From: a virus
Strand: one strand, 5' to 3'
DNA length: 52,054 bases
IMG/VR virus record: IMGVR_UViG_3300046777_001343
Location: 1-52,054 of that record
Position numbers and translations under genes: made by a program. Below are positions 10,244 to 51,603 of this stretch, piece after piece. Under the pieces are notes generated by a model. It was not told the origin of the DNA. It saw nothing but the letters and a program-made list of their open reading frames with translations, and ran no database searches. Each line of letters starts with the position of its first letter. Positions within the stretch are counted from its first letter, which is position 1.

Positions 10244-10737
10244 TGAGCATATTAGATCTTGAGCCAGATAAAGAAATCAAAAAGGCTAAAGTTTTAAAGG
10301 AAGACCTCCCTGCACTTAGTTCTAAGGTTCTTGGATATTTTGTTAGATATAGGATAGTGTCTAAAGATAAAAATAGGTCTTCTCACTGGTCTCCATACTA
10401 TTTTCTAATAAAGGGACAAATACCAAAAGTTAGTTGTTCTGTGACAACTTCAGGAACATCTCCAAAAGTTCTTAATATGGTTTGGGAACATCCAAAAATT
10501 TCGTCAGACCCAGACGAAACTGAAAGATCAATATTTAAAGAGTATGATATTTATATAAAGACTAATTTAAGCAATGATAAGTGGAGTTTTCTTGCTACAG
10601 CACCTTCCACACAGTTTTCAACACTGCTTTCATCTGGAATATCTTCTTTCCAGGTTGCAGTTCAGGTTCCTGTTTATCCTAAGAATTATTCTGAAGATGC
10701 TGCAATCTTTACTTTGCCAACCCCTTTAGTGGTATAA
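10243..10737 (+). CDS. Putative tail protein with fibronectin-type-III-like fold
   Basis: 164 residues, starting at a TAATG overlap. It has an Ig/FN3-like alternation of strands, with YFVRYRIVSKDKNRSSHWS early and KEYDIYIKTNLSNDKWSFLA later. Such domains are common in phage tail fibres and help surface adhesion. Its stop codon lies inside the TATAAT box that serves the next gene. The fold call is by eye and tentative. Confidence 0.5.
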   Translation: MSILDLEPDKEIKKAKVLKEDLPALSSKVLGYFVRYRIVSKDKNRSSHWSPYYFLIKGQIPKVSCSVTTSGTSPKVLNMVWEHPKISSDPDETERSIFKEYDIYIKTNLSNDKWSFLATAPSTQFSTLLSSGISSFQVAVQVPVYPKNYSEDAAIFTLPTPLVV

Positions 10738-10738
10738 T
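10733..10738 (+). promoter_or_regulatory. Extended -10 box, leaderless promoter for the 10745 gene
   Basis: TATAAT preceded by TGG (TGN extension) ends exactly 6 nt before ATG 10745. Transcription starting about 7 nt downstream of the box would begin at the start codon. No Shine-Dalgarno sequence is present and no clear -35 is visible. Confidence 0.6.
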
Positions 10739-10744
10739 TATAGT

Positions 10745-11188
10745 ATGGCAAAAATACCTCTCCCTGAACGTGGACAACCGCTAGATGTAGCATATGTTTA
10801 TGAGTTGGCCCAAGCGGTTAACGAGTTATCTAAAGAAGTTTCTCCAGCAACTTATGACTATGTAACAGTTCAAACAGCAGACAATGGTCCGCAAAATAGA
10901 AAGGTTACAGAGATTAGAGTTATTGGGGGTCTAGAAAAGGTTGCAAGTAGCAGATCTGTTCTTGCTGGAGATCAACTGCCTTTCTCACATTCTTTTGCAG
11001 GCGAGTTTAGATTCCCACCAATCGTTACTGCTACTCCAGTAAATGTAGGACAAACCCCTGCTGGATCTAATGTTACTCTTATCCTGAATGATCCTTCAAC
11101 CTCTGGTGTTAATGGTTTTGTTAAGTTTAATACATCTGGAGATACATCTCTTAATGTTAACCTTATTATCATTGGCATACCAAACTAA
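10745..11188 (+). CDS. Putative minor tail/virion protein
   Basis: 147 residues. The N-terminus (PLPERGQPLDVAYVYELAQA) resembles short phage proteins that lead into fibre tips. The C-terminal ~90 residues look like a small beta-sandwich (FRFPPIVTATPVNVG, then NVNLIIIGIP), similar to tip domains of fibres. It probably has its own leaderless promoter at 10733, so it can be made independently of the tail operon upstream. Confidence 0.5.
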   Translation: MAKIPLPERGQPLDVAYVYELAQAVNELSKEVSPATYDYVTVQTADNGPQNRKVTEIRVIGGLEKVASSRSVLAGDQLPFSHSFAGEFRFPPIVTATPVNVGQTPAGSNVTLILNDPSTSGVNGFVKFNTSGDTSLNVNLIIIGIPN

Positions 11189-11379
11189 TGCTAAAGTGTA
11201 AAAAATGCAAAGGGAGGATGTTTCTTGACAGGCAATACACAACTGTTGGGCACCTTGAAACATATTGTATGGCTTGCGGTTCAAGAAATTTTTATAATCC
11301 ACCAGAAAGTTCTGCGGAGGGTTCATGGCTGTTAAAAAGGGAAGTATCGAGAGCGAAGGCTACAATGTCCTCCCTGTAA
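11188..11379 (+). CDS. Small zinc-ribbon-like protein
   Basis: 63 residues starting at a TAATG overlap. Two CxxC pairs (CKKC at residues 4-7 and CMAC near residue 28) form a typical zinc ribbon. Its 3' end overlaps the next gene by 55 nt in another frame. Function unknown; a nucleic-acid or protein-binding role is common for such ribbons. Confidence 0.6.
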   Translation: MLKCKKCKGRMFLDRQYTTVGHLETYCMACGSRNFYNPPESSAEGSWLLKREVSRAKATMSSL

Positions 11380-11867
11380 TTCCAGGCAATAAAAAAGTTT
11401 GGTTTTTAAATGGAGACCTTGTAAGAATACATCACCTAAACAAGTCTAATGGTATTATGTCTGTTTATAATATTACAAAAGATCAAATTGAAAGTTGTTT
11501 GGTATCTGATTTTAAAAAGAAGCGTGAAAGAGCCTATACAGTTAGAGAGACTGCTGATTTAGTTAATCGTCATAAAAAATATATGCCATCACTAATGAAA
11601 CGAGGAGTCATTCCTTTCCCAACAGGTTCACAAAAAGGTGGGGCAAGAGGCTTTCAGGTTAGATCATATTACTCAGAATCGCAAGTAAGAGAGATACGTG
11701 ATATACTTGCTACGTATCATATTGGCAGACCAAGAAAAGATAATTTAATTACAAATGATATTACGCCTAGTAAGCAAGAGTTGACAAGAAGAATGGGCGA
11801 TGGTATACTTACATATACGAGAACTGAAGATGGACGATTCATTCCAATCTGGTCTGAATCTATTTAA
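11325..11867 (+). CDS. Helix-turn-helix DNA-binding protein
   Basis: 180 residues. The middle section has the pattern of a MerR/excisionase-like winged helix: AYTVRETADLVNRHKKYMPS, then a wing-like GGARGF and a second helix QVREIRDILATY. It lies at the junction between tail and replication genes, a plausible place for a regulator or replication accessory protein. The start at 11325 lies within the preceding small gene; GCGGAGGG just upstream is a good Shine-Dalgarno sequence. Confidence 0.6.
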   Translation: MAVKKGSIESEGYNVLPVIPGNKKVWFLNGDLVRIHHLNKSNGIMSVYNITKDQIESCLVSDFKKKRERAYTVRETADLVNRHKKYMPSLMKRGVIPFPTGSQKGGARGFQVRSYYSESQVREIRDILATYHIGRPRKDNLITNDITPSKQELTRRMGDGILTYTRTEDGRFIPIWSESI

Positions 11868-11881
11868 CGAAGGGTATGAAA

Positions 11882-12088
11882 ATGGAAAACGATGAGACAA
11901 AGGTATCTGTTACACTTGGATACACACTTAACCTTGGCAACTTTCAATCACTAAGACTTGATCTTGGCGTTGTTGATAGTAAGCGCAATGGAGAAAATAC
12001 AAACGAGGCATTTGAACGTGTCTACAAATTTGTAGAAGATAAGTTAACTGAAAAGATTAACGAAGCAAAGTCTGAAATTAACGAGTAA
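11882..12088 (+). CDS. Conserved small acidic protein, unknown function
   Basis: 68 residues from ATG 11882. This start is preferred over ATG 11876 because the GAAGGG sequence at 11869-11874 is then properly spaced. The protein is acidic with a beta-strand-like start (KVSVTLGYTLNLG) and a helical end (VEDKLTEKINEAKSEINE). It overlaps the next gene by TAATG, so the two are probably translated together. Confidence 0.5.
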   Translation: MENDETKVSVTLGYTLNLGNFQSLRLDLGVVDSKRNGENTNEAFERVYKFVEDKLTEKINEAKSEINE

Positions 12089-12396
12089 TGGCCGAACGCA
12101 AAGACCGTATGGCTTTGCTTTCAAGATACAGCAAGTATCATACCGCAAGGTACGAGTCAAAGCCATCACTTAACTTAAACGTAGAGCAGTGGGCATCTGA
12201 TGCCCTTGTAGAGTCATACGGAATATCTGGCTGCTACGATATACTTGAGTATTACTTTACAGTTGCAGAGAATCCTTCGTGGAACTATTTTGCATACAAC
12301 GCAGAAAAAATATTGCAGGCACAAAAAGATAAAAAGAAAGATGATGAAGAGAGAGAAGAGCGTAGAAGAATGGCAAAGGAGTGGCTAAGTGAATAA
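12088..12396 (+). CDS. Putative helicase-associated protein (possible loader)
   Basis: 102 residues with a strongly charged C-terminal helix (KDKKKDDEEREERRRMAKEW). It lies directly before the replicative helicase, whose GTG start sits inside its last codons. Small helical proteins next to DnaB in phages are often helicase loaders, but no loader signature (no ATPase motif) is visible. The role is inferred from position alone. Confidence 0.4.
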   Translation: MAERKDRMALLSRYSKYHTARYESKPSLNLNVEQWASDALVESYGISGCYDILEYYFTVAENPSWNYFAYNAEKILQAQKDKKKDDEEREERRRMAKEWLSE

Positions 12397-13609: not shown

Positions 13610-13610
13610 T

Positions 13611-13616
13611 TATAAT
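13611..13616 (+). promoter_or_regulatory. TATAAT box just upstream of the 13622 gene
   Basis: A perfect TATAAT ends 5 nt before ATG 13622, after the helicase stop codon. No Shine-Dalgarno sequence or good -35 is seen, so this looks like a weak leaderless promoter. Confidence 0.4.
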
Positions 13617-13621
13617 ATGGT

Positions 13622-13975
13622 ATGCAGCAAAGCAAGGGAAATATCCCTCCTACCTTCTACCATCATAGGCCTATCAAGAAGTTCTACCTTGACGGGATCA
13701 TCCATGATGAGTCAGCGCTTGGTAGGTTAAAGGATGAATATATCAGGCTACTTGACTCAGAGATGCGCCTTTCTGGGTATGTACCAAGGCTTGACATAAC
13801 TCCAGATTTTACGCTAGACTATAATCATAAGAAAAAATATTTTGAATTTCAACTAACAGTACACGGGACATATACGGGGAGAAAACAGAGCGAATGGATA
13901 GCAGGAATAGACGTAAGCACACCAATCTTTATACAAAAGAGCAAATCAAAAGAGTTCTCACAGGAACAGGTGTAA
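13622..13975 (+). CDS. Hypothetical protein between helicase and primase
   Basis: 117 residues, basic in the middle (NHKKKYFEFQ), with a mix of helix and strand. Its last 82 nt overlap the primase gene in another frame. No family recognised. Its location inside the replication block suggests a DNA replication role, but nothing in the sequence proves it. Confidence 0.5.
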   Translation: MQQSKGNIPPTFYHHRPIKKFYLDGIIHDESALGRLKDEYIRLLDSEMRLSGYVPRLDITPDFTLDYNHKKKYFEFQLTVHGTYTGRKQSEWIAGIDVSTPIFIQKSKSKEFSQEQV

Positions 13976-32013: not shown

Positions 32014-32042
32014 TTGACAGACAAAATGGTTTGGGGTATACT
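32014..32042 (+). promoter_or_regulatory. Consensus leaderless promoter for the 32049 gene
   Basis: TTGACA (32014-32019), 17 bp spacer, TATACT (32037-32042). The box ends 6 nt before ATG 32049, so the RNA should begin at the start codon. Confidence 0.82.
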
Positions 32043-32048: not shown

Positions 32049-32267
32049 ATGAGCGAAGAGTTTGATGATATTCTAAAAGGAATGCAAGATACAGAGGCAG
32101 ACTTTAATGAGTTTGAGATCTGGCTTGAAAACGGGATTGAAAGAGGATGGGTAACAGAGCCATTCTGCAATACACATGAAGGTGATCCTTTTATGACAGA
32201 GGAAGAACAAGAAGAGTGGGAAGCAGGGGGAGACCCTTGCCAATTAGTTTTAAAAATCAAAGAATAA
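32049..32267 (+). CDS. Small acidic protein, unknown function
   Basis: 72 residues from ATG 32049. The TTG at 32031 lies in the promoter and is rejected as a start. The protein is very acidic (MTEEEQEEWEAGGDP) and contains two cysteines. No family recognised. It is probably made from a leaderless transcript that continues into the subtilase gene. Confidence 0.6.
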   Translation: MSEEFDDILKGMQDTEADFNEFEIWLENGIERGWVTEPFCNTHEGDPFMTEEEQEEWEAGGDPCQLVLKIKE

Positions 32268-33255: not shown

Positions 33256-33264
33256 TGATATAAT
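33256..33264 (+). promoter_or_regulatory. Extended -10 promoter for the endolysin
   Basis: TGA followed by TATAAT (33259-33264), directly after the tRNA. A leader of about 24 nt contains AAGGAGG before ATG 33295. No clear -35. Confidence 0.5.
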
Positions 33265-33294
33265 TGTATTGTCATACCTACAAGGAGGAATAAC

Positions 33295-34464: not shown

Positions 34465-34470
34465 TATAAT
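34465..34470 (+). promoter_or_regulatory. TATAAT box, leaderless promoter for the 34478 gene
   Basis: TATAAT at the end of the FmdB gene ends 7 nt before ATG 34478. The first in-frame ATG (34469) lies in the box itself. Confidence 0.5.
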
Positions 34471-34477: not shown

Positions 34478-34711
34478 ATGCTAAAAGAAGAAGTCAAGCA
34501 AGAATGGGTTCTAGGACCAAAGGATCGCTGCGACAAATGCGGAGCAGAAGCCTTAGTTCAGGTAACTGGTATTTCTGGAGACCTACTATTTTGTGGTCAC
34601 CACTACAACGCCATTATGGCTATCCCAGATGGTTATAACAGTATGATGTCCTTTATGATTAGCATTATTGATGAGCGTGAGAAGTTAGATAAAGACAGAA
34701 ATAAGGATTAA
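34478..34711 (+). CDS. DUF7455-like zinc protein (actinobacterial type)
   Basis: 77 residues from ATG 34478. DRCDKCGAEALVQVT followed by LLFCGHHYNAI is the pattern of a short zinc-binding protein conserved in actinobacteria (C-x2-C, then C-x-H-H). Its presence supports an actinobacterial host. Function unknown. Confidence 0.72.
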   Translation: MLKEEVKQEWVLGPKDRCDKCGAEALVQVTGISGDLLFCGHHYNAIMAIPDGYNSMMSFMISIIDEREKLDKDRNKD

Positions 34712-34713: not shown

Positions 34714-35274
34714 ATGATTAGCAAAGTAGATGAGCCTTTTAATTATAAGTTTCATGGTAACTTTGATATATCACAAATAGCAGACCACTTATCAACATAT
34801 TCAGATGAGTGGTTTGCTAATGGACAAAGACAGGCTATTCATGAAGTACATAAAGAAACAAACTCTGTATTTGTGTATGACCACGATGCTGGATGGTCCA
34901 TTGGAGATGAATACAATGTCAAAATAAATAAGGATCAGTCTGTAATGATTGACCTTCTTTCTCCTATAGTAAGAACTCTAGAATCTATACACGATGGTAA
35001 AGTTGGAAAATGTATTTTTATTAAATTGCCTGCACATAAAAATGTTGGAGAGCACACAGACAAGATGGACTATCTTGGTGCTGTTAGACGACACCATGTT
35101 GCAATAACAACAAACGATGATGTTCTTTTCTTTGTTGATAAAGAAAACAAGAACATGAAAGTTGGAGAGTGCTGGGAAATTAACAATAGCAGACTTCACA
35201 GTGTAGAAAACAATGGTGATACTGAACGAATCCATTTGCTAGTTGATATATTGCCTAACAAGTTTGTTAAATGA
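34714..35274 (+). CDS. Aspartyl/asparaginyl beta-hydroxylase-like 2-oxoglutarate oxygenase
   Basis: 186 residues. IKLPAHKNVGEHTDK gives the HxD iron ligands, RRHHVAITT the substrate/2-oxoglutarate region, and NNSRLHSVENNGDTERIHLL the distal His and Arg. This matches the Asp/Asn beta-hydroxylase fold. It could hydroxylate a phage or host protein or a small molecule. It overlaps the sulfotransferase gene by ATGA, so both are likely made together. Confidence 0.72.
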   Translation: MISKVDEPFNYKFHGNFDISQIADHLSTYSDEWFANGQRQAIHEVHKETNSVFVYDHDAGWSIGDEYNVKINKDQSVMIDLLSPIVRTLESIHDGKVGKCIFIKLPAHKNVGEHTDKMDYLGAVRRHHVAITTNDDVLFFVDKENKNMKVGECWEINNSRLHSVENNGDTERIHLLVDILPNKFVK

Positions 35275-36965: not shown

Positions 36966-37165
36966 CAGTAACCAAGGCAAGGTCGTTTGCTAAAGCACTT
37001 AGTTATCGCATATGGGGAACGCTTTCATCTGTGGCTGTTGCGTATGTTATAACAAAGAACGCTTCTCTTTCTGTAACTATTGCATTTTGGGAAACGGTAG
37101 TCAAGGTATTTATTTATTACGCACATGAGCGTGGATGGAACTATATACAATGGGGGAGAAAGTAA
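36962..37165 (+). CDS. DUF2061 membrane protein (copy 3)
   Basis: 67 residues from ATG 36962, overlapping copy 2. The sequence ARSFAKALSYRIWGTLSSVA then IYYAHERGWNYIQWG is clearly similar to copy 2, indicating tandem duplication. The two could form a heteromeric membrane protein. Confidence 0.8.
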   Translation: MTVTKARSFAKALSYRIWGTLSSVAVAYVITKNASLSVTIAFWETVVKVFIYYAHERGWNYIQWGRK

Positions 37166-38688
37166 TGCAGAAAAAGGTTGTTGTTGTCGGTGGAGGCAGC
37201 GCAGGATGGCTAACAGCATTGATGGCAAAAAAATCTTCTCCAGATATAGATGTAACTGTTATAGAGTCAGAAGAGATAGGTATTTTAGGTGCAGGCGAGT
37301 CGTCAGTGCCAGCACTTATTCAGTTTTTTAGGCATTTAGGAATATCTGTTCCCGATTTAGTAAAAAATTGTGACGCAACAATAAAAAATGCTATTAAGTT
37401 TACTAACTGGAACAATGATAATGACTTTTACTATCATGGATTTTTGCCAACAGAAGAGGCATTAGGCCCATATGCAATACCTTTTAAGTTTTTGTCAACA
37501 AGCCCAATGCAAGTATCAAGTTTAGTAATTAATAATGGACTAAAAGAAATAGAGTTTTCAGAAAATATTTCAGAACAAAATAAGGTTCCTTTTATTTTTA
37601 AATCAAAGCAAGGCAAAAACCCAATGCTTGATTATGAAAATATAGGAACCTTCTCTCTTCATATTAATGCTACTAAACTTGCAAATAGGCTAAAAGAAAT
37701 AGGGATTGATCGTGGAATTAGTGTTATAGAAGGAATTGTAAAAGAAGTGTCATTAGATAGTAACAACTATGTTGATGGATTAATTTTAGAGAATGGCTCT
37801 ATGGTTTCATGTGATTTTGTCTTTGATTGCAGTGGGTTTCACAGACTAATTATTGGTAAAATTTTTAAATCAAAATGGAAAAGTTATAAAGAGTTCTTGC
37901 CATCTGACTCAGCCATCCCATTTTTTATTGATATGACAGAAGAAATTCCTCCATACACAGAGTGTATTGCTATGAAGTATGGTTGGATGTGGAAGATTCC
38001 TCTTCAATCAAGATTTGGCTGTGGATATGTCTACGATTCTTCTTTAATATCAGAGAAAGAGGCTATAGAGGAGGTTGAAGAATTCCTTGGTTTTGAGCCA
38101 CACTATCCTAGAAAAGAAAAAGGTGGGTTTAGTTTTAATGCTGGATCATATGAAGAGCCTTGGATAAATAATTGTGTAGCGATAGGTCTTGCAGCAAACT
38201 TCATAGAGCCCTTAGAAGCGACATCTCTTTGGACTAGTACATCATCCCTAATTGAGGTCTTTGCAAATCCAAACTGGATATCAAATAACTCAAAAGAGGT
38301 CAGAGATGAGTTTAACAAGTTTATTGTTTCTTTAAATGAAGAGATTGTAACTCTCTTATATCTACATTATATGTCATTAAGAAAGGATACAGACTTTTGG
38401 AAAAAGTTTTCATATGAGGGCGCACCAGAACAACTAAAACAAAGGCTTGAGATGTGGAAAGTAAGACTGCCGAATAAAAACGATGTATCAAAACTTTGGG
38501 CAGTTGATAGTTGGATAACTATTGCATCTGCACAAAATACAATGAATAAAAGTTTGGCAAAATCCTATCTAGAATACTCTGAAGAGTATCAAAAGGGGAT
38601 TGATACATACGATCATTTTATTAATTACCAAAATTATAAAATTTCACAATGTCTTGGACATAGAGAGTTTTTGGAGAGTTTAAAATGA
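37165..38688 (+). CDS. Flavin-dependent halogenase (tryptophan-halogenase type)
   Basis: 507 residues from ATG 37165 (TAATG overlap with the DUF2061 gene; GGGGGAG upstream). FAD-binding GGGSAGW (~10-16), GAGESS (~43), a conserved Lys in IKNAIKFTNW (~76), the diagnostic WxWxIP motif as GWMWKIP (~273) and NFIEPLEATS (~345). It would halogenate an aromatic substrate using a flavin reductase from the host. Halogenases of this type occur in a few environmental phages; the substrate is unknown. Confidence 0.87.
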   Translation: MQKKVVVVGGGSAGWLTALMAKKSSPDIDVTVIESEEIGILGAGESSVPALIQFFRHLGISVPDLVKNCDATIKNAIKFTNWNNDNDFYYHGFLPTEEALGPYAIPFKFLSTSPMQVSSLVINNGLKEIEFSENISEQNKVPFIFKSKQGKNPMLDYENIGTFSLHINATKLANRLKEIGIDRGISVIEGIVKEVSLDSNNYVDGLILENGSMVSCDFVFDCSGFHRLIIGKIFKSKWKSYKEFLPSDSAIPFFIDMTEEIPPYTECIAMKYGWMWKIPLQSRFGCGYVYDSSLISEKEAIEEVEEFLGFEPHYPRKEKGGFSFNAGSYEEPWINNCVAIGLAANFIEPLEATSLWTSTSSLIEVFANPNWISNNSKEVRDEFNKFIVSLNEEIVTLLYLHYMSLRKDTDFWKKFSYEGAPEQLKQRLEMWKVRLPNKNDVSKLWAVDSWITIASAQNTMNKSLAKSYLEYSEEYQKGIDTYDHFINYQNYKISQCLGHREFLESLK

Positions 38689-38983: not shown

Positions 38984-39793
38984 ATGTCATTGAAGCAATT
39001 GTACTTTCTTCACATACCAAAAACTGCTGGAAGTTTTGTTTCTCAAAATATTAAAGATAGTATAAACAATAATACCCTTTGCTATGTTAGTACAATTTTC
39101 CCAAACAGCAATGAATTTTTAAATTCAAAGATCTATATATCTGCACATGGAGGAAGGTATCCTATAGATTTCCTTGGAGATGTTGATGTTGCCACATTAA
39201 TAAGAGAGCCTGTGTCTGCAAAAGCAAGTTACTTTAATTTTATTTACCCAAGGTATCTAAGCCACAGGACTGAGTATAAAGAATTAAACAGTAACAAAGA
39301 TAGATTCCTGTACTACTTACTTAAAGATGAAAACTTTAAAATTCATAACAACTATCAAAGTAGATTTATTTGCAACTCTGCTGATCCAAGATCTTGGAAT
39401 GCAGAATCTTTTTACACAAAGCATAGAACCGAAATGATGAAGAAGTATCACGAAGGCTATGGATTTGACTGGTTTATTGGAAATGAAAAAACATCGCTAT
39501 CTAATGCAATTCATAATATAAGTAATTTTCAAATAGTTAACACAGTTGACAACATAGGGGTGTTTTGTGATAAAATTAAGAATTGGTTTTGGATAAACCA
39601 CAAAATTGAAATAAATTTTGACCTTAATACTAAGATTAATGTTGGTCCATCTGAGTTAAATGAAGAAAAAGTTTCCTCTGAGTACTTTGTAAACCTTCTT
39701 ACACAAGGAGAAAAGGATAGGGTATTAGAGTTAAACAGTATAGACTTAGATGTATATAATTTTGTAAAAAACAAGGAGGCTACAAATGTATGA
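38984..39793 (+). CDS. Sulfotransferase family protein (2)
   Basis: 269 residues with AAGGGGTG upstream. YFLHIPKTAGSFVSQNI (residues ~8-24) is the PAPS-binding loop of the Sulfotransfer_2 type. ATLIREPVSAKASYFNF (~70) matches the 3'-phosphate loop. It differs strongly from the 35271 protein, so the two probably have different acceptors. The 3' end overlaps the nuclease gene by 8 nt. Confidence 0.78.
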   Translation: MSLKQLYFLHIPKTAGSFVSQNIKDSINNNTLCYVSTIFPNSNEFLNSKIYISAHGGRYPIDFLGDVDVATLIREPVSAKASYFNFIYPRYLSHRTEYKELNSNKDRFLYYLLKDENFKIHNNYQSRFICNSADPRSWNAESFYTKHRTEMMKKYHEGYGFDWFIGNEKTSLSNAIHNISNFQIVNTVDNIGVFCDKIKNWFWINHKIEINFDLNTKINVGPSELNEEKVSSEYFVNLLTQGEKDRVLELNSIDLDVYNFVKNKEATNV

Positions 39794-40193
39794 ATACTAT
39801 GTAAGAAAAGTAGAGAACGTAGTAGATGGAGATACCATTGACGTTCTTATTGATTTAGGGTTTGATATTTTATTTCAATCCCGTGTGAGATTGGCTGGGA
39901 TCGACACCCCTGAATCTCGAACATCTGACAAGGCTGAAAAAGTTCTTGGTCTTGAGTCTAAAGAGTATCTTAAAAAGCACTTAAAGGATGCTAAGTCAGT
40001 AGTTATTAAGACTGAAAAAATGGACTCGTCCGAGAAGTATGGCCGTATTTTGGGGTGGGTGTATGTTAATGGAGATACAGAGTCTATCAATGATAAGATG
40101 ATTAATGATGGCTATGCCTGGGGATATATGGGAGACACAAAGGTCAAAGATTTTGATGCTTTGAAGAAGGCTAGAGCAAAGTCAGGAAAGTAA
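39786..40193 (+). CDS. Staphylococcal-nuclease-like (SNase) protein
   Basis: 135 residues. VVDGDTIDVLIDLG, RVRLAGIDTPESR and KYGRILGWVYV carry the SNase catalytic pattern (Arg, Glu, Arg, plus Asp/Thr calcium ligands). There is no signal peptide, so it should act inside the cell on host or phage DNA. It overlaps both neighbours. Confidence 0.85.
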   Translation: MYEYYVRKVENVVDGDTIDVLIDLGFDILFQSRVRLAGIDTPESRTSDKAEKVLGLESKEYLKKHLKDAKSVVIKTEKMDSSEKYGRILGWVYVNGDTESINDKMINDGYAWGYMGDTKVKDFDALKKARAKSGK

Positions 40194-41730: not shown

Positions 41731-42012
41731 ATGCCAAAGCACGAATGGAAAGACGATGCGTTGTGTTTGGAATATGACACAAACCTTTTCTTTGAAAAGT
41801 ATGAAGATGATGAAATTCTTAGACCAGCAATAGACAAACTTTGCTCTATGTGCCCAGTATCAAAAATGTGTTTTGCTGTTGGCGTGTCACAAAAAGAGTG
41901 GGGTATCTGGGGTGGTGTTTACCTTGAAGGTGGGCAAATATCTAAAGAATTTTCTAAGCACAAGTCTAAATCAGACTGGGCAAATACTTGGCAAAGATTG
42001 ACGGTGGACTAA
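41731..42012 (+). CDS. whiB: WhiB-family Fe-S regulator
   Basis: 93 residues. Four cysteines in the WhiB pattern: C12, C38, C41 and C47 (LCSMCPVSKMC), then the G[I/V]WGG turn as WGIWGG (~58-62). The family holds a 4Fe-4S cluster and binds the primary sigma factor. It is found essentially only in actinobacteria and their phages, so it is strong host evidence. A basic C-terminal tail (SKHKSKSDW) may touch DNA. It may redirect host transcription or affect superinfection. Confidence 0.88.
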   Translation: MPKHEWKDDALCLEYDTNLFFEKYEDDEILRPAIDKLCSMCPVSKMCFAVGVSQKEWGIWGGVYLEGGQISKEFSKHKSKSDWANTWQRLTVD

Positions 42013-43447: not shown

Positions 43448-43852
43448 ATGGTAGTAGAAACAATGCTGGGTCTTTTAGATGACCCATTCTTTAATCGATT
43501 CAATCAAACAGTTAGAACAACACAAAACAACTATCCACCTTATAATTTAATTAAGGTAGGCCAAGAGTTGTTTGTTTTAGAGTTTGCTCTAGCAGGTTTT
43601 GACAAAGAAGAAGTGTCGATTACGGTAGAAAATAATCAACTAAAGGTCAGTGGCCAAAGATCAGAGGTTGAAGAGGACGATTCTGTAACCTATTTACACA
43701 AGGGGATTGCAGCAAGAAAGTTCTCAACAGTGTTTAACTTGCCAGAATATATGGAAGTTGAATCAGCACTATTTTCAAACGGTATATTAGAGGTAACTCT
43801 AGAAAAGCATATACCAGAAGAAAAGAAGCCAAAAACTATTGAAATTCAGTAG
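43448..43852 (+). CDS. Small heat-shock protein (Hsp20/IbpA-like)
   Basis: 134 residues. It shows the alpha-crystallin domain pattern: YPPYNLIKVGQELFVLEFALAGF, NNQLKVSGQR, YLHKGIAARKFSTVFNLPEY and the final NGILEVTL, plus the IbpA-like end PEEKKPKTIEIQ. It would keep unfolded proteins soluble, possibly aiding virion assembly. It has a strong own promoter. Phage Hsp20 genes are known in cyanophages and some others. Confidence 0.88.
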   Translation: MVVETMLGLLDDPFFNRFNQTVRTTQNNYPPYNLIKVGQELFVLEFALAGFDKEEVSITVENNQLKVSGQRSEVEEDDSVTYLHKGIAARKFSTVFNLPEYMEVESALFSNGILEVTLEKHIPEEKKPKTIEIQ

Positions 43853-44099: not shown

Positions 44100-44105
44100 T
44101 ATAAT
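44100..44105 (+). promoter_or_regulatory. TATAAT box, leaderless promoter for the HNH gene
   Basis: TATAAT ends 7 nt before ATG 44113. No Shine-Dalgarno sequence is present. Confidence 0.5.
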
Positions 44106-44112: not shown

Positions 44113-44385
44113 ATGACTGACAAAGAGTTAGACCATTATAATAAGCAGCAGTATAAAAAAATGCTTGCCAAGATAAAAGAAGATTCTGGCTGTGTGGATT
44201 GTGGAATCAGTAATCATATTATCTTAGACTTTGACCACATAAGAGACAAAAAATACAATGTATCAAGGATGATCCATGATGGGTTTTCATGGAAGGCTAT
44301 CAAGAAAGAAATAGAAAAGTGTGAGGTGGTTTGTGCCAACTGCCATAGGATAAGAACCCATAATAGATTAAACGGCATGCTATAA
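44113..44385 (+). CDS. HNH endonuclease
   Basis: 90 residues from ATG 44113. CVDCG (~27) and LDFDHIRDKK (~39) followed by EIEKCEVVCANCHRIRT give the zinc-binding HNH nuclease: DH as first HN residues and the final CHR. It resembles free-standing small phage HNH proteins that act as homing or packaging-associated nicking enzymes. It directly follows the two structured RNAs. Confidence 0.8.
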   Translation: MTDKELDHYNKQQYKKMLAKIKEDSGCVDCGISNHIILDFDHIRDKKYNVSRMIHDGFSWKAIKKEIEKCEVVCANCHRIRTHNRLNGML

Positions 44386-44386
44386 T
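44378..44386 (+). promoter_or_regulatory. Extended -10, leaderless promoter for the 44393 gene
   Basis: TGC followed by TATAAT (44381-44386), ending 6 nt before ATG 44393. The stop codon of the HNH gene lies in the box. Confidence 0.65.
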
Positions 44387-44392: not shown

Positions 44393-45373
44393 ATGCTAAA
44401 AGAAGGCGATTTCGCAATGACTGCTCATGGATCTGATGAAGAGGTCCATACTGGCCAAGTAGTACATGTTATGACAGAAGGAGTTCTTGGTGTACCAGGG
44501 GGAGAATATACTCTTGAAGCAACACCTGAGAACCCAGCAGTTTTAATTCAATTGTTTGAACAAGAAGAAGATGGATTTTGGGAAGCAACAAATTTATACA
44601 CAGGATGCATGATGTCGTTGCTAGTTCCTATTAGCCCACTACCACAAGAACCAACTAAAGAGGAGATAGCGATGGCAGCGTATGATGCATCAATAGGTAA
44701 GGCTGATGATTCAATGATGCCAACAGATACCTACCAAGACTGTGGATGCGAAACATGTAAAGAATTAGATGTAAGTTGTGAAAACTGTCCAGTGTGTCAG
44801 TCAGATGGAATGAAGAGTGACTGCTGTCCTGATTTAAATAAGCAAGCGCCGTGCTGGGATGGATATGTGCAGCGTGGAATGAAGCCAGGAGATAGTGGTA
44901 AGCCAGTTCCTAATTGTGTTCCTGCTGCAAAGGCAGATGATCTTTGGGAAGATGATGATACAGTTGAATATGAAACAGACACAGTGTCAAAGGCTGAAGG
45001 ATACTCCCCACCAGCAGGAGCAAGATCTGCTGCTCGTAGAGCAATTAAGTTTAAAGAAGATGGAAAGGCTAATGGTGCAGGTACTGCAGTTGGCTGGACT
45101 AGGGCAGGGCAGTTAGCAAGAGGTGAATCATTATCTCTCAGCACTGTTAAGAGAATGTATTCATACTTCTCACGCCACGAAGTAGACAAGAAGGGCAAAG
45201 ATTGGGGTAACTCAGCAAACCCATCTAATGGATACATCATGTGGTTAGCATGGGGTGGAGACGCAGGATTCTCTTGGTCAAGAGGAATTGTTAATCGTGA
45301 AAAAGATAAGGCATTGTTTGCTGATTTTGGAAAAGATTATACAAGAAACCGAACAGAAAGACACTCACTATAA
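44393..45373 (+). CDS. Phage structural-type protein with Cys-rich middle
   Basis: 326 residues. The N-terminal ~90 form a beta-rich domain. The middle has many cysteines (CGCETCKEL, CENCPVC, CCPDL) and a CWDGYVQRGMKPGDSGKPV stretch. The C-terminal domain with GWTRAGQLARGESLSLSTVK and YIMWLAWGGDAGFSWSR occurs attached to phage portal, protease or scaffold proteins. No protease motif is clear here. It could be a head-associated or maturation protein. Leaderless promoter. Confidence 0.5.
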   Translation: MLKEGDFAMTAHGSDEEVHTGQVVHVMTEGVLGVPGGEYTLEATPENPAVLIQLFEQEEDGFWEATNLYTGCMMSLLVPISPLPQEPTKEEIAMAAYDASIGKADDSMMPTDTYQDCGCETCKELDVSCENCPVCQSDGMKSDCCPDLNKQAPCWDGYVQRGMKPGDSGKPVPNCVPAAKADDLWEDDDTVEYETDTVSKAEGYSPPAGARSAARRAIKFKEDGKANGAGTAVGWTRAGQLARGESLSLSTVKRMYSYFSRHEVDKKGKDWGNSANPSNGYIMWLAWGGDAGFSWSRGIVNREKDKALFADFGKDYTRNRTERHSL

Positions 45374-46247: not shown

Positions 46248-46409
46248 TTATTTAGATGGTTGCTTCAAAGCCTGCAGAATAATCTGCTCTCTTAAGAATG
46301 CCTGCTTCCGCTCAAACTTTGATAGGTAGGGCTTAGCCTGTATTCTTTTTTTATTTTTATTTGCTCTTTTAATTTTATGCTGAGATACTTTGTTGTTAGA
46401 CTTTTTCAT
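46248..46409 (-). CDS. Small highly basic protein
   Basis: 53 residues with AGGGAGC upstream and an ATGA overlap with the gene before it. It is rich in Lys/Arg/Asn (HKIKRANKNKKRIQ) with a helical end (REQIILQALKQ). Nucleic-acid binding is plausible. No family recognised. Confidence 0.5.
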   Translation of the reverse strand: MKKSNNKVSQHKIKRANKNKKRIQAKPYLSKFERKQAFLREQIILQALKQPSK

Positions 46410-46543
46410 TTTGCTCCCTGATTTTCTGCTACATTGTCACAAGGACAGATAATTGATTCTGGAAGTTCGTGGACCCCTGTTACAATTGTTATTGTAGTTT
46501 TACATTCATTACACTTATAAATCTTTTTAGTTTGTTTATTCAT
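46406..46543 (-). CDS. Small zinc-ribbon-like protein
   Basis: 45 residues. KCNEC near residue 11 and CPC near residue 34 could bind zinc. It starts from a leaderless promoter at 46550-46578 and overlaps the next leftward gene. Confidence 0.6.
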   Translation of the reverse strand: MNKQTKKIYKCNECKTTITIVTGVHELPESIICPCDNVAENQGAK

Positions 46544-46549: not shown

Positions 46550-46578
46550 ATCATACCACAGTTCGACCCATGAGTCAA
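46550..46578 (-). promoter_or_regulatory. Consensus leaderless promoter (leftward)
   Basis: Read on the minus strand: TTGACT (46578-46573), 17 bp, TATGAT (46555-46550) with a TGG extension, then 6 nt to ATG 46543. The -35 contains the stop codon of the phosphatase gene upstream. Confidence 0.78.
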
Positions 46579-47042: not shown

Positions 47043-47115
47043 TGTATGTCATAACAAGATAGCACAATGCATAGCCTACTAAAAATGCTGGAATTAAAAA
47101 TAAAAAGTTAATCAT
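47026..47115 (-). CDS. Tiny membrane peptide
   Basis: 29 residues. One hydrophobic helix (MINFLFLIPAFLVGYALCYL). It overlaps the phosphatase start and the previous gene by ATGA, so it would be translated by coupling. It may be real or a translational coupler only. Confidence 0.4.
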   Translation of the reverse strand: MINFLFLIPAFLVGYALCYLVMTYNVDQN

Positions 47116-47285
47116 TCGAAATCTACCTGTGTTTCAAAATACTTTGTCATATAGTTTCCTTCTCCTCTTGCAATTTTAGCAGCAGCGATACGCATACCTA
47201 AAGCATTTGTCTTTGATTCTTCAATAGGAAGAGCCTCAATAGCCTTTGCTATTTCTTCTCTTAATACCATCTCATCTATACTCAT
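47112..47285 (-). CDS. Small helical protein
   Basis: 57 residues from a leaderless promoter. Helical throughout (EMVLREEIAKAIEALPIEES, then LGMRIAAAKIARG). It heads a leftward unit that includes the membrane peptide and HAD phosphatase. Function unknown. Confidence 0.6.
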   Translation of the reverse strand: MSIDEMVLREEIAKAIEALPIEESKTNALGMRIAAAKIARGEGNYMTKYFETQVDFE

Positions 47286-47291: not shown

Positions 47292-47320
47292 AGTATACCC
47301 TAAGAGGAACTGATTGTCAA
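47292..47320 (-). promoter_or_regulatory. Consensus leaderless promoter (leftward)
   Basis: Minus strand: TTGACA (47320-47315), 17 bp, TATACT (47297-47292), 6 nt, ATG 47285. The -35 box includes the stop codon of the glutathione peroxidase gene. Confidence 0.85.
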
Positions 47321-47762: not shown

Positions 47763-48551
47763 TTAGTTAGATAAAACTAGATTAGGATTGATCAATGATT
47801 TCTCGCCAGCCATAAGTCTTTCAATATGGTCACGAATAACTGCGTTCTCTTCTTGGAAGATGTCATCTGATCTATCAGGACCCATTGTTGGTGTAATTCC
47901 CTGAGCCAAAAGATCTTCTTTTAGAGTGCGCTCTACGTCATAGTTAAGAGTTGTACAAGGATAATGCTTAACTACATATCCATCCTTATCAATCAAATAC
48001 TTTTCAAAGTTACAATTCATTGTAAACCCACCATCGTGCTGGTTAAGGTATCTTGATTCATAGTCTGTTTTTTCAACAATGCCAAGTTCTTGCTTCTTAT
48101 CCCAAATTGCCTTGGTCTGTCGTGCAACCTCTAGATAAAGTTCATGTCTTTCTCCAAATGGCTGACCATTTCCATTAAGTCCTGGACCCTGTCCAAGCCA
48201 TGGTGCTTCTAATGGAATTTCTGCGGGATTGGATGTGATCATTTCTGAGAATGGGAATGTAACACCATAAACATCTTCTCCATACATCTTAGAATCTAAA
48301 CCTTTTTCAATACCCTTGGACCACTTACCCTTTGTGATACTTGGTCCACAGAAGTCATTGGTAGGAATTGCTACAACAGAGAAGTCTTCTCCACCAAGGT
48401 CTTCTTGAATCCACTGAATGGATTCCATTTGACCAGCGTTACCACAACCAACTGTAGTGTTAATGAGCATAATTGCTTTGCCCTTGAATTGTTGAAGAAA
48501 GTGTGGAACGCCTTCGGCAGATTCCAATTCGATGTCATATATAGATTTCAT
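47763..48551 (-). CDS. Divergent glutathione-peroxidase-like protein
   Basis: 262 residues from ATG 48551, chosen because the leaderless promoter ends 6 nt upstream; ATG 48578 lies upstream of it. LINTTVGCGNAGQME, PTNDFCGPS and NCNFEKYLIDKDG parallel the Cys, Gln and Trp segments of glutathione peroxidase. The central ~80 residues are an insertion. The Gln and Trp positions differ, so substrate or activity may be new. It is a possible distant paralogue of the next gene. Confidence 0.65.
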   Translation of the reverse strand: MKSIYDIELESAEGVPHFLQQFKGKAIMLINTTVGCGNAGQMESIQWIQEDLGGEDFSVVAIPTNDFCGPSITKGKWSKGIEKGLDSKMYGEDVYGVTFPFSEMITSNPAEIPLEAPWLGQGPGLNGNGQPFGERHELYLEVARQTKAIWDKKQELGIVEKTDYESRYLNQHDGGFTMNCNFEKYLIDKDGYVVKHYPCTTLNYDVERTLKEDLLAQGITPTMGPDRSDDIFQEENAVIRDHIERLMAGEKSLINPNLVLSN

Positions 48552-48557
48552 ATTGAT

Positions 48558-48566
48558 ATTATAACA
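48558..48566 (-). promoter_or_regulatory. Extended -10, leaderless promoter (leftward)
   Basis: Minus strand: TGT then TATAAT (48563-48558), 6 nt, ATG 48551. No clear -35. Confidence 0.6.
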
Positions 48567-48571
48567 CACTT

Positions 48572-49255
48572 TTAACAATCATCTTTTGTGCTTGCAAGAA
48601 CAATGGATGGATCAACGTATGAATTTCCGTAAAAAGTATGCCTTGAATTAGGTCCAAGAACCTTATTTACTCTGTGCTTATACTTATCTCCACCAGGGAT
48701 TACGGCAAGCATTCCAGCCTTTGGCTTAACCTTGATTGGCAAATTTCCAAACTCTAACTCTCCACCTTCAAAATCATCATTGAGATATAAACTAAATGAT
48801 ATTAAAATGTTACTTTCTAGACCTGGATCCTGGTGCCAATACATAGCAAAATCAATATTGTTCTTATCTGCACCATATTCATTTAGGAGATCTTCATTCG
48901 CATTCTCTGCAATCTCTTCATCTGTCATATACTTAAAGGTTTGCAGTGTTGAGTGTCTGCGATAGCCTTCTGGAAGAACTGACTCAAGTCTTTCCCAAAT
49001 TCCGCCAGGGCGAGAAAAAACTGGTACATCAATAAGAACTGAATCATCATTAGGAAACTCAATGTTTCCGTTCTCATCATACTTTGGGACCACATTTAAA
49101 AACTTATTTAAAATATTTTTGTATGGTGATCTCATTGTTGGGTACCACCCGTTTAAGTCATCTGTTTGAGTTTTGAACCAAGATAGTTCTTCTTCTGTAA
49201 GAAAATCTTCTATAATCCAAACTTGCTTATCTTCATCTAAATAAATTTTTTCCAT
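48572..49255 (-). CDS. Prolyl-4-hydroxylase-like Fe(II) 2-oxoglutarate oxygenase
   Basis: 227 residues. Iron ligands H141 and D143 (YWHQDPG) and H194 (YKHRVNKV), with R205 as the 2-oxoglutarate anchor (SRHTFYGN). EGGELEFG and KAGMLAVIPGG are typical prolyl hydroxylase strands. The enzyme may hydroxylate proline in an exported or tail protein. A proline-rich protein and a hydroxyproline-type GlcNAc-transferase are encoded in the same genome. Leaderless promoter at 49262. Confidence 0.8.
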   Translation of the reverse strand: MEKIYLDEDKQVWIIEDFLTEEELSWFKTQTDDLNGWYPTMRSPYKNILNKFLNVVPKYDENGNIEFPNDDSVLIDVPVFSRPGGIWERLESVLPEGYRRHSTLQTFKYMTDEEIAENANEDLLNEYGADKNNIDFAMYWHQDPGLESNILISFSLYLNDDFEGGELEFGNLPIKVKPKAGMLAVIPGGDKYKHRVNKVLGPNSRHTFYGNSYVDPSIVLASTKDDC

Positions 49256-49261
49256 AACAAT

Positions 49262-49270
49262 ATGATACCA
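49262..49270 (-). promoter_or_regulatory. Extended -10, leaderless promoter (leftward)
   Basis: Minus strand: TGG then TATCAT (49267-49262), 6 nt, ATG 49255. It lies between the tRNA-Glu gene and the hydroxylase gene. Confidence 0.55.
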
Positions 49271-49278
49271 TAACTTTG

Positions 49279-49350
49279 TAGCCCCAACGGGAATCGAACC
49301 CGTCTTTACGCCGTGAAAGGGCGTTGTCCTAACCGATAGACGATGGAGCC
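49279..49350 (-). tRNA. tRNA-Glu (anticodon TTC)
   Basis: Acceptor GGCTCCA/TGGGGCT. The anticodon loop CTTTCAC lies between CGCC and GGCG. T arm ACGGG-TTCGATT-CCCGT. Discriminator A; CCA not encoded. Confidence 0.9.
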
Positions 49351-49354
49351 AAGA

Positions 49355-49664: not shown

Positions 49665-49741
49665 TATTCTCCTATTGCAAACCAGATAAGCATAGCAGCA
49701 AGAATAAACCCTGCCCCCATACCAAGTACAAAACTTATCAT
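49664..49741 (-). CDS. Tiny membrane peptide
   Basis: 25 residues, a single hydrophobic helix (MISFVLGMGAGFILAAMLIW). It overlaps both neighbours (ATGA and TAATG), with AAAGGA upstream. Confidence 0.45.
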   Translation of the reverse strand: MISFVLGMGAGFILAAMLIWFAIGE

Positions 49742-49983
49742 CCCATATCCTTTTCCCATAGAGTTAAACACTTAGTACATTGTATACCATTCTCACGCAT
49801 ATACCAAGTATGATCACAGCCAAGAACCCTATCTTTGGGCTTTCTGTGGACACCTTCTCTAACCTGTTGTCTAAAGATACCATTTGGATCATGGATATGG
49901 CACTTATCTCCAATGCGCCAGTCCTCCACTTTATATTTACACGGAAGACCTTTTTTTGTTAGTGAACTACAGTCTCTTGCCAT
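49738..49983 (-). CDS. Zinc-binding protein
   Basis: 81 residues. The first half has CSSLTKKGLPCKY with CHIHD, a small treble-clef-like pattern. The second half has GCDHTWYMRENGIQCTKC, a second ribbon. It overlaps its neighbours closely. Function unknown. Confidence 0.62.
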   Translation of the reverse strand: MARDCSSLTKKGLPCKYKVEDWRIGDKCHIHDPNGIFRQQVREGVHRKPKDRVLGCDHTWYMRENGIQCTKCLTLWEKDMG

Positions 49984-50074
49984 TTACACACCAAATTTTG
50001 TAATCGCTCATGGTTTGATGATTATCCCAATATTCAATATTTTCTTTTTCCATTTTGCAGGTTGGGCAAATCAT
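49967..50074 (-). CDS. Tiny zinc-ribbon-like peptide
   Basis: 35 residues, ATGA overlap with the gene before it. CPTC at residues 3-6 and one later Cys. Probably translated by coupling. Function unknown. Confidence 0.4.
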   Translation of the reverse strand: MICPTCKMEKENIEYWDNHQTMSDYKIWCVNGKRL

Positions 50075-50193
50075 TGTCTGTGCCGTTTCTTATTACCAAA
50101 ACGAATCTTAACTTCAGCCTTAGCCTGATCTACAATGGCTTTGGTGATTTCTTCAACACTAAACTCTTGGTCGAATGTTTGTTCAGTATCCAC
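50071..50193 (-). CDS. Small helical protein
   Basis: 40 residues with a GTG start that overlaps the previous gene by 11 nt. An acidic start (VDTEQTFDQEF) and a basic end (RFGNKKRHRQ). The start codon lacks a strong ribosome-binding site. Confidence 0.4.
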   Translation of the reverse strand: MDTEQTFDQEFSVEEITKAIVDQAKAEVKIRFGNKKRHRQ

Positions 50194-50389
50194 CTAGGCA
50201 CTCATTTCTTGTATGGTAAAGTCTAATCTTAGTCATAGTCTTTTTGTTGGGTGCATTAAGTGGTTCTCCACATGCTCCACACTCCATATCCCATTCGCCA
50301 GAAAAGAAGTCGTATCGTAATCCTTTTGTGCGATTATATTTTTCTATTCTAAACTGGGTAAATGGATCAGGAATTTCTAAATTTATCAT
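50183..50389 (-). CDS. Small zinc-binding protein
   Basis: 68 residues from ATG 50389; the longer frame from 50464 contains the promoter and is rejected. CGACGEPL and a late Cys could bind zinc. It is rich in aromatic and basic residues. It heads a leftward unit with a consensus leaderless promoter. Confidence 0.6.
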   Translation of the reverse strand: MINLEIPDPFTQFRIEKYNRTKGLRYDFFSGEWDMECGACGEPLNAPNKKTMTKIRLYHTRNECLGGY

Positions 50390-50395
50390 ACTACA

Positions 50396-50424
50396 AGAAT
50401 ACCGTATTTCGGCAGGGATGTCAA
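50396..50424 (-). promoter_or_regulatory. Consensus leaderless promoter (leftward)
   Basis: Minus strand: TTGACA (50424-50419), 17 bp, TATTCT (50401-50396), 6 nt, ATG 50389. Confidence 0.8.
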
Positions 50425-50427
50425 GTC

Positions 50428-50553
50428 TTAAGAAACAAGACCCATAGACAAATGAGTAAAGCAAACGTCAGCAACAATATAGTCGGCGTGATCTACGACA
50501 ATATCAAAATGTGTAGCGTCTTTGTCGCAAAAAAAACACTTAGATTTATTCAT
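50428..50553 (-). CDS. Small zinc-finger-like protein
   Basis: 41 residues from ATG 50553. CFFC at residues 6-9 and CFTH near residue 31 are possible zinc ligands (C-C-C-H). A leaderless promoter ends 6 nt upstream. Function unknown. Confidence 0.58.
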   Translation of the reverse strand: MNKSKCFFCDKDATHFDIVVDHADYIVADVCFTHLSMGLVS

Positions 50554-50559
50554 ACATTC

Positions 50560-50568
50560 ATTATATCA
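50560..50568 (-). promoter_or_regulatory. Extended -10, leaderless promoter (leftward)
   Basis: Minus strand: TGA then TATAAT (50565-50560), 6 nt, ATG 50553. A weak -35, TTTGCG, lies 17 bp upstream. Confidence 0.65.
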
Positions 50569-50596
50569 TGTTTAAAGTTCGGCGCAAAATAGAAGT

Positions 50597-50633
50597 AAAA
50601 AACCTCCATATGCCCTAAAAGGGCACTAAGGTT
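50597..50633 (-). terminator. Leftward terminator
   Basis: GCCCT (50612-50616) pairs with AGGGC (50620-50624), with an outer AACCT/AGGTT pairing. On the minus strand it is followed by six T. It ends the 50730 gene and shields the next promoter. Confidence 0.72.
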
Positions 50634-50730
50634 TACATTCCTTCATATGCTTATATAAACTTTCATGAGCAAAACCTTTTCTAAAATCCCATTCTTTCTT
50701 GCAGGTAGGACATACTATGGTTCTACTCAT
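50626..50730 (-). CDS. Tiny C2HC zinc-finger protein
   Basis: 34 residues with GGAGG upstream. It reads CPTCKKEW, then YKHMKEC: Cys-Cys-His-Cys spacing of a classical-like zinc finger. It has its own promoter and terminator. It may bind nucleic acid or regulate early genes. Confidence 0.62.
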   Translation of the reverse strand: MSRTIVCPTCKKEWDFRKGFAHESLYKHMKECKP

Positions 50731-50752
50731 TCATCCTCCATTGATATAATCA

Positions 50753-50781
50753 ATTATCTCATATTTGGCACTGTATGTCAA
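50753..50781 (-). promoter_or_regulatory. Promoter for the tiny zinc-finger gene (leftward)
   Basis: Minus strand: TTGACA (50781-50776), 17 bp, GATAAT (50758-50753) with a TGA extension. A leader of about 17 nt contains GGAGG. Confidence 0.7.
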
Positions 50782-50927
50782 GTGGACAGTTTATACTCAT
50801 ATCCAGGAGTCTCAACCTTTACTTTATACACGCTGCTGAGTTAGTCCGTGTTGGCTTTTCGTGATAGTCACCTACCAAGAAAGTTTATGAAGGTAATACT
50901 CACCATATGGCTTTCGGCTTCTATACA
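50782..50927. other. Gene-poor gap between divergent promoters
   Basis: No convincing gene. A leftward transcript from the promoter at 50928 would cross it. On the minus strand a GTG-started 17-residue frame (VYKVKVETPGYEYKLST) ends at the -35 of the zinc-finger promoter; it is too short to call. A small RNA is possible. Confidence 0.3.
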
Positions 50928-50956
50928 ATTATATCCATTTTGCCACGGTATGTCAA
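50928..50956 (-). promoter_or_regulatory. Consensus promoter, no clear gene (leftward)
   Basis: Minus strand: TTGACA (50956-50951), 17 bp, TATAAT (50933-50928). It is fully consensus, yet no good start codon follows at the leaderless distance. Confidence 0.72.
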
Positions 50957-50957
50957 G

Positions 50958-50963
50958 TATAAT
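50958..50963 (+). promoter_or_regulatory. TATAAT box, leaderless promoter for the GIY-YIG-like gene
   Basis: TATAAT ends 6 nt before ATG 50970. It lies 1 nt from the -35 of the leftward promoter, so RNA polymerase could not occupy both at once. Confidence 0.6.
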
Positions 50964-50969
50964 GAACCT

Positions 50970-51290
50970 ATGGAAGAAGCAGTCTTATATATACTATATA
51001 GCCCATTACATAAGGCTGTTAAAGTTGGGATATCTGATATAAGCGGAAGAAGGTTTGCAAGCCATAGGACCAAGGGTTGGATATTGATCAAGTATTGGCA
51101 TTTTTTCGAACGGGATAAAGCGAGAGCCGTAGAAACCCTAGTACTAAGAACACTAAGGGAAAGATATGGACACTTTCTGGATAAGTCGGATATGCCTCAA
51201 AATGGATACACAGAAACCTTTGATGCCTCAAAGATAACTCGTAGGGCTTTGATCCGTATGGTCAATAGGGCTATAAAGGATGTATCGTAA
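50970..51290 (+). CDS. GIY-YIG-like nuclease
   Basis: 106 residues from ATG 50970; an earlier in-frame ATG (50907) lies upstream of the promoter box. LYILYSPLHKAVKVGISD followed by RRFASHRTKGWIL and an ERDKARAVETLVLRTLRE helix match GIY-YIG nucleases of the T5orf172/MUG113 type (Tyr, Arg and a catalytic Glu). It is the only rightward gene near the origin and may cut host DNA, or act in homing or replication. Confidence 0.62.
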   Translation: MEEAVLYILYSPLHKAVKVGISDISGRRFASHRTKGWILIKYWHFFERDKARAVETLVLRTLRERYGHFLDKSDMPQNGYTETFDASKITRRALIRMVNRAIKDVS

Positions 51291-51309
51291 TCTTTATTTA
51301 CCGTGGTTT

Positions 51310-51435
51310 TTACTCAGATATACATGAAGTGCAGACAAATGGTTCATCAGTTGGTTTGAAGTGTAGTTCATCACATTGAGTACAGGCTATTTTGTACCCC
51401 ATAAACTTAGTATATGATGATTCTAATTTGTGCAT
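51310..51435 (-). CDS. Small zinc-ribbon protein
   Basis: 41 residues. CTQCDELHF and CTSC form a zinc ribbon. A leaderless promoter ends 6 nt upstream of ATG 51435. It lies next to the origin and converges on the GIY-YIG-like gene. Confidence 0.65.
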   Translation of the reverse strand: MHKLESSYTKFMGYKIACTQCDELHFKPTDEPFVCTSCISE

Positions 51436-51441
51436 TGGATT

Positions 51442-51450
51442 ATTATATCA
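51442..51450 (-). promoter_or_regulatory. Extended -10, leaderless promoter (leftward)
   Basis: Minus strand: TGA then TATAAT (51447-51442), 6 nt, ATG 51435. A DnaA box (51454-51462) lies just upstream, which may link initiation and transcription. Confidence 0.65.
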
Positions 51451-51453
51451 GAG

Positions 51454-51462
51454 TTATCCACA
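51454..51462 (+). promoter_or_regulatory. DnaA box 1
   Basis: A perfect TTATCCACA. It lies directly upstream of the promoter for the zinc-ribbon gene. Confidence 0.75.
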
Positions 51463-51465
51463 GGT

Positions 51466-51588
51466 TTAGCAGTTATGAGTATATCCACAATCAGGACATT
51501 TCTCTCCTGGATTTGCTACACAATCGTCACACCAATCTGGTGCATCTTTCCATAACTTACCCAATGAATCATATTCTGGTTTGTCCAT
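51466..51588 (-). CDS. Small zinc-binding protein
   Basis: 40 residues. WCDDC, CPDC and a final Cys could bind zinc; the rest is acidic. A leaderless promoter ends 6 nt upstream. Function unknown. A near-match DnaA box (ATATCCACA, 51481-51489) lies inside the gene. Confidence 0.62.
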   Translation of the reverse strand: MDKPEYDSLGKLWKDAPDWCDDCVANPGEKCPDCGYTHNC

Positions 51589-51594
51589 ATGTAT

Positions 51595-51603
51595 AGTATA
51601 TCA
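51595..51603 (-). promoter_or_regulatory. Extended -10, leaderless promoter (leftward)
   Basis: Minus strand: TGA then TATACT (51600-51595), 6 nt, ATG 51588. DnaA box 2 begins 6 bp upstream of it. Confidence 0.62.

Follow-up and report, generated by a model that had tools for sequence, protein, structure and literature searches.

Leaderless genes of Actinobacteria and Deinococcus-Thermus carry the motif TANNNT ~12 bp upstream of the start codon, and the lower the GC content of a genome, the more closely this box resembles TATAAT (PMC3160421); the −10 region of leaderless genes adjoins the open reading frame (ORF) (PMC12340547). Predicted leaderless promoters have also been described in phages, namely PL1, PR2 and PL2 of the cluster O mycobacteriophages (PMC4351075) and P90 of Adephagia (PMC11373665), and a search of the open-licence literature turned up no account of leaderless transcription across a whole phage. 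Here, we analyzed a virus record of 52,054 nucleotides (nt) (IMGVR_UViG_3300046777_001343, the whole of which is called the window), with 37% GC and six tRNAs, in which 15 genes, ~1 in 6 of the fragment, have a TATAAT-like −10 box ending 5–7 nt before the ATG. The box and its spacing are conserved in related phages, and these elements probably act as promoters that yield leaderless mRNAs.

The 15 boxes had been listed by a first-pass annotation made from the letters alone, and we found all sites and spacings exactly as it claimed: the spacer between box and ATG is 6 nt at 12 of the genes, 5 nt at 13622, and 7 nt at 34478 and 44113. A TGN extension is present at 8 of the 15 boxes and a −35 element (TTGACA, at least 5 of 6 positions matching) at 17 bp from 4 of them (32049, 47285, 46543 and 50389), with the 46543 promoter carrying both. 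Sigma-70-type elements (TGN, or TTGACA at 16–18 bp) thus accompany 11 of the 15, in line with the claim that most have one or the other. A regular-expression search found no Shine-Dalgarno sequence upstream of any of the 15 genes, because the box itself fills positions −12 to −7. In a catalogue of 85 starts, 1, 12 and 2 genes have the box at 5, 6 and 7 nt, compared with 0.57 per other distance, and in a catalogue of 59 genes whose starts were picked by coding score alone, 5 have it at 6 nt compared with 0.49. The peak is thus clear at gene starts. The distance scan against shuffled sequence that had been proposed counts all ATGs, and its 20 boxes at 6 nt against a mean of 11 and a maximum of 21 in 100 shuffles are not significant alone; this test is weak because most ATGs are not gene starts.

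Relatives were gathered in four scans, their orthologues were aligned by tblastn, and the DNA before the aligned start was read. For the 15 genes, the box lies at 5, 6 and 7 nt in 37, 163 and 34 of 300 orthologous upstream regions (234/300 in total), compared with 2, 19 and 1 of 1,946 for the 70 other genes (22/1,946). In start-aligned pairs, identity was 0.75 in the box, 0.67 in the TGN, 0.55 between box and start, and 0.48 further upstream. The 6-nt sites of the relatives carry a sigma-70-type element in 75% of cases (TGN in 61%, −35 in 15%, both in 1.5%). Among the mechanically called ORFs of the relatives, the 6-nt peak is 13-fold near the 2OG-oxygenase gene, 6-fold near the helicase and ~3-fold elsewhere, whereas out-of-frame ATGs in these ORFs show no such peak. 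Summed over 16 long relatives, TATAAT-N5–7-ATG occurs 299 times, compared with 115 for N12–14 and 109 for the reversed pattern.

The base before the start codon tells a similar story. At the 6-nt sites of the relatives, position −1 is T in 69%, compared with 19% of Shine-Dalgarno genes and 28% of other in-frame ATGs, as is expected if transcription begins on the A of the ATG. At the 7-nt sites, A occupies position −1 in 50% and a pyrimidine occupies −2 in 67%, the pyrimidine–purine step tending to lie one base further up. A transcription start seven bases downstream from the last base of the box, at the A of the ATG or beside it, would fit both patterns. Position, spacing, conservation and initiator base are read directly from the DNA. 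The mean folding energy of the first 30 nt is −1.28 kcal/mol for the leaderless genes, −1.51 for the Shine-Dalgarno genes and −2.42 for other ATGs, values to which we attach no weight for either mode.

The explanation that we favor, with a probability of roughly 0.9, is that the 15 boxes are sigma-70-type promoters read by the host polymerase, which would give leaderless mRNA by a grammar of the actinobacterial lineage. The −10 element would be placed one discriminator length (~6 nt) before the start codon, and transcripts made by the host RNA polymerase would begin with the A of the ATG, or 1–3 nt before it where the box is 7–9 nt away. The promoters would depend for the most part on an extended −10 (TGN) or a −35 placed at 17 bp, and rarely on both, and the leaderless mRNAs would be translated by the host ribosome without a Shine-Dalgarno sequence. 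Single small genes, some within co-directional runs, would thereby each gain a promoter at very little cost in length, the stop codon of the preceding gene forming part of the −10 box in two cases, and the remaining genes would use Shine-Dalgarno leaders or translational coupling. We infer from sequence the actual transcription starts, the use of the host polymerase, leaderless translation and the identity of the host. The earlier proposal of leaderless promoters is well supported: box and spacing are conserved, the initiator base fits, and two non-actinobacterial phages lack the pattern. Its companion claim, that coupled genes use Shine-Dalgarno sites, stood for 18 of 32 overlapping genes, the rest being without a recognizable one.

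What kind of phage is this? The polymerase (DnaE) and terminase are best matched by Streptomyces phages of the BillNye/Jay2Jay kind (~54% identity), and the order of the tail, helicase, primase, polymerase, RecA and terminase genes is similar to that of BillNye; this identity to members and the similar order suggest a possible affiliation with Stanwilliamsviridae. A WhiB-like gene (41731–42012, plus strand; PF02467, 42.1 bits against a cut-off of 23.6) is present, as it is in 12 of 12 relatives, and WhiB is a marker of actinophages (PMC6802176, PMC10202952). These matches support an actinophage source, as the first-pass annotation implied. The window is probably a portion of a larger genome because the longest relatives span 112–120 kb. 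A megablast search against phages gave no match to the window. A terminase 63% identical to that of the window is encoded on one contig (L321) of a metagenome-assembled genome labelled Nanopelagicales, which could be mis-binned, and hints weakly at this order as the host. The window also encodes a tryptophan halogenase (37135–38688) with many relatives among viral contigs, and proteins resembling an aspartyl/asparaginyl hydroxylase (34714–35274), a Staphylococcal nuclease (39786–40193) and Hsp20 (43448–43852).

Three genomes from the order of that contig (G036, G007 and G026) show the same spacing, with TANNNT 6 nt before ATG at 34 vs. 5.8, 15 vs. 3.0 and 13 vs. 3.2 sites and before GTG at 17 vs. 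4.6, 10 vs. 2.1 and 10 vs. 2.0, respectively. BillNye has the box at 6 nt at 7 of 217 annotated starts, compared with 0.7. The 6-nt spacing, shared by BillNye and the presumed host order, therefore points to an inherited actinobacterial grammar. In the phage relatives L162–L191, the peak appears before ATG only and not before GTG, which may be an effect of numbers, GTG starts being rare in phage. A set of viral contigs (L201–L240), related mainly through the oxygenase domain and for the most part lacking a WhiB match, was considered as a source of unrelated controls and rejected, as it includes other WhiB phages and its own 6-nt peak, to which L219, L222 and L223 contribute most, persists after splitting by WhiB. 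The clean controls are therefore T4 and the cyanophage P-SSM4, similarly AT-rich phages of non-actinobacterial hosts, and neither has a 6-nt peak at its starts (0/87 and 1/73).

Several points weigh against the leaderless-promoter explanation. Four of the 15 boxes (13622, 34478, 44113 and 50970) have neither TGN nor −35, and the support for three members (50389, 51435 and 51588) is weak. The 85-start catalogue takes in the earlier reader's own start choices, and the independent support is therefore that of the 59-gene catalogue and the relatives. The initiator-base comparison is drawn from related sequences, and the orthologues are mutually related, such that their counts are not independent. 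Some orthologues place the box at least 9 nt from the ATG, and a leader of a few nt is therefore predicted for them. Finally, those contigs of L201–L240 that lack WhiB have a 6-nt peak of their own, although a smaller one (18 vs. 6.2), and the pattern is not exclusive to the family.

Could leaderless mRNA instead be reserved for a functional or temporal class of genes under a different ribosome state, as two deliberate translation programs? In the right arm of the window, which is mostly on the minus strand and holds small genes and tRNAs, 9 of 20 genes are of the leaderless type compared with 6 of 65 elsewhere (p = 9e-4), and the strongest peak in the relatives falls at the 2OG-oxygenase region. 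We nevertheless consider such programs unlikely. Predicted leaderless genes are not confined to one part of the window but are also present in the tail/replication region, beside tail and helicase genes, and orthologues switch mode: for 48551, 21 of 33 are of the leaderless type but 10 of 33 have a Shine-Dalgarno sequence, and in the three of the latter that were inspected the box is displaced upstream by ~21 nt and the extra leader contains AGGAGG; for 47285, 2 of 12 have no box but have a Shine-Dalgarno sequence. Ordinary leadered promoters also exist, with the box 15–30 nt from the ATG and then a Shine-Dalgarno sequence, upstream of 30854, 33295, 39786 and 40761. The promoter of the endolysin gene (33259–33294, plus strand) provides the contrast, as its TGATATAAT box ends 30 nt before ATG 33295, with AAGGAGG in the leader, and a box is found near that distance in 30 of 36 orthologues. 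Moreover, the presumed host order has the same arrangement as the 15 genes, and a phage-coded ribosome or initiation factor was not identified, although no systematic search was made. The first-pass suggestion of a deliberate split between translation modes thus keeps its right-arm enrichment, but, with the absence of Shine-Dalgarno sequences being geometric, it goes beyond the evidence. It is quite unlikely, too, that the right-arm genes are kept leaderless by selection for a ribosome state (e.g., 70S initiation) favored by the phage or by infection stress, with translation mode as a timing switch. A generic scan of the right arm gave no clear excess of promoters (36 vs. 30.2) or terminators (4 vs. 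4.9) over shuffles.

The boxes might also be real promoters whose transcripts begin a few bases ahead of the ATG and carry a short 5′ leader; orthologues in which at least 9 nt separate box and ATG would suit this idea, but the distances peak sharply at 6 nt and the base preceding the A of the ATG is in most cases a pyrimidine, which makes it very improbable. That AT-rich DNA yields TATAAT-like hexamers near many ATGs, from which the reader picked those that fitted, is hardly credible, since, although the all-ATG count reaches no further than the upper end of what shuffling gives, box and spacing are conserved across divergent relatives and the peak is missing at out-of-frame ATGs and in T4 and P-SSM4.

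The plus-strand members of the set of predicted leaderless promoters illustrate how tightly they are packed. The TATAAT box at 10733–10738 (TGG extension, 6 nt before ATG 10745; box at 5–7 nt in 48/60 orthologues) contains the TAA of the upstream gene (10735–10737), as it does in 43 of the 48 box-bearing orthologues, and precedes a predicted leaderless gene of 147 amino acids (aa) with no family match (10745–11188). At 44381–44386, the TATAAT box (TGC extension, 6 nt before ATG 44393; 12/20 orthologues) contains the TAA (44383–44385) of the HNH endonuclease gene, with the TAA inside the box in 6 of those 12; the gene behind it (44393–45373, 326 aa, phrog_2859 of unknown function) is predicted to be leaderless. 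The HNH gene itself (44113–44385, 90 aa), predicted to be leaderless or to have a 1-nt leader, has its TATAAT at 44100–44105, 7 nt before the ATG (16/23). In a 12-nt gap behind the helicase gene, TATAAT at 13611–13616 lies 5 nt before the predicted leaderless gene 13622–13975 (117 aa, phrog_17515 of unknown function), in 36/36 orthologues, the flanks being well conserved too. Directly behind an upstream TAG, TATAAT at 34465–34470 lies 7 nt before 34478–34711 (77 aa, DUF7455), predicted to be leaderless or to have a very short leader, with the box at 5–7 nt in 18/33 orthologues and at least 9 nt away in others. The gap between upstream stop and box in most orthologues is one base at 13622 and zero at 34478. 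TATACT at 32037–32042, with TTGACA at 17 bp, lies 6 nt before the predicted leaderless gene 32049–32267 (72 aa; 21/21), and TATAAT at 50958–50963 lies 6 nt before another, 50970–51290 (106 aa, endonuclease-like, phrog_681; 4/4). Near the right end, the minus strand carries three promoters that match the consensus perfectly (TTGACA, 17 bp, TATAAT; 51801–51881 and 50928–50956), and the one at 50956 overlaps, back to back, the promoter region of the 50970 gene.

On the minus strand, every spacer is 6 nt. The predicted leaderless genes are 46406–46543 (45 aa, CxxC motifs), with TATGAT at 46550–46555, a TGG extension and TTGACT at 17 bp (11/11 orthologues); 47112–47285 (57 aa), with TATACT at 47292–47297 and TTGACA at 17 bp (9/12); 47763–48551 (262 aa, glutathione-peroxidase-like, PF00255), with TATAAT at 48558–48563 and a TGT extension (21/33); 48572–49255 (227 aa, 2OG-Fe(II) oxygenase), with TATCAT at 49262–49267 and a TGG extension, just behind tRNA-Glu (49278–49350) (21/23); 50428–50553 (41 aa, CxxC motif), with TATAAT at 50560–50565 and a TGA extension (12/12); and 51310–51435 (41 aa, CxxC motifs), with TATAAT at 51442–51447 and a TGA extension (2/3). 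Two further genes are putatively leaderless: 50183–50389 (68 aa), whose weak box TATTCT at 50396–50401 departs from the consensus at two positions and has TTGACA 17 bp away (3/9), and 51466–51588 (40 aa, CxxC motifs), whose TATACT at 51595–51600 with a TGA extension is seen in the window sequence only, with no usable orthologue. The tiny genes of 40–45 aa with CxxC (46406–46543, 50428–50553, 51310–51435 and 51466–51588) form a group that is zinc-ribbon-like by eye. The correction of gene starts that the boxes had been said to provide is supported where a longer ORF exists and orthologues carry a stop codon in the same frame shortly before the start (e.g., 48551 and 32049), while 34478, 44113 and 50970 are not decided by the in-frame-stop test.

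The leaderless-promoter explanation would allow predicted transcription starts to be mapped, and gene starts to be called better, throughout a family of freshwater actinophages known chiefly through metagenomes, and orthologues with and without a Shine-Dalgarno leader would be useful for comparing leaderless and leadered translation. The leaderless mode of expression is already established in Actinobacteria, and our analysis strongly supports the view that the phage arrangement is real and common to related phages. Like the bacterial genes (PMC3160421), those of the window have the first T of the −10 box ~12 bp before the start, no predicted leader and a TATAAT-like box at low GC; unlike them, they belong to a phage of 37% GC with frequent TGN, and the phage relatives use the spacing before ATG only, whereas the host-order genomes use it before GTG as well. 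The mycobacteriophages (cluster O and Adephagia) have few such promoters per phage, compared with ~15 in this 52-kb fragment, where conservation was measured. BillNye of the Stanwilliamsviridae resembles the window in its polymerase and terminase, its helicase–primase–polymerase–RecA–terminase order and its own, smaller 6-nt peak, but it differs in having ~53% GC, a Shine-Dalgarno sequence at 64% of its starts and far fewer leaderless candidates.

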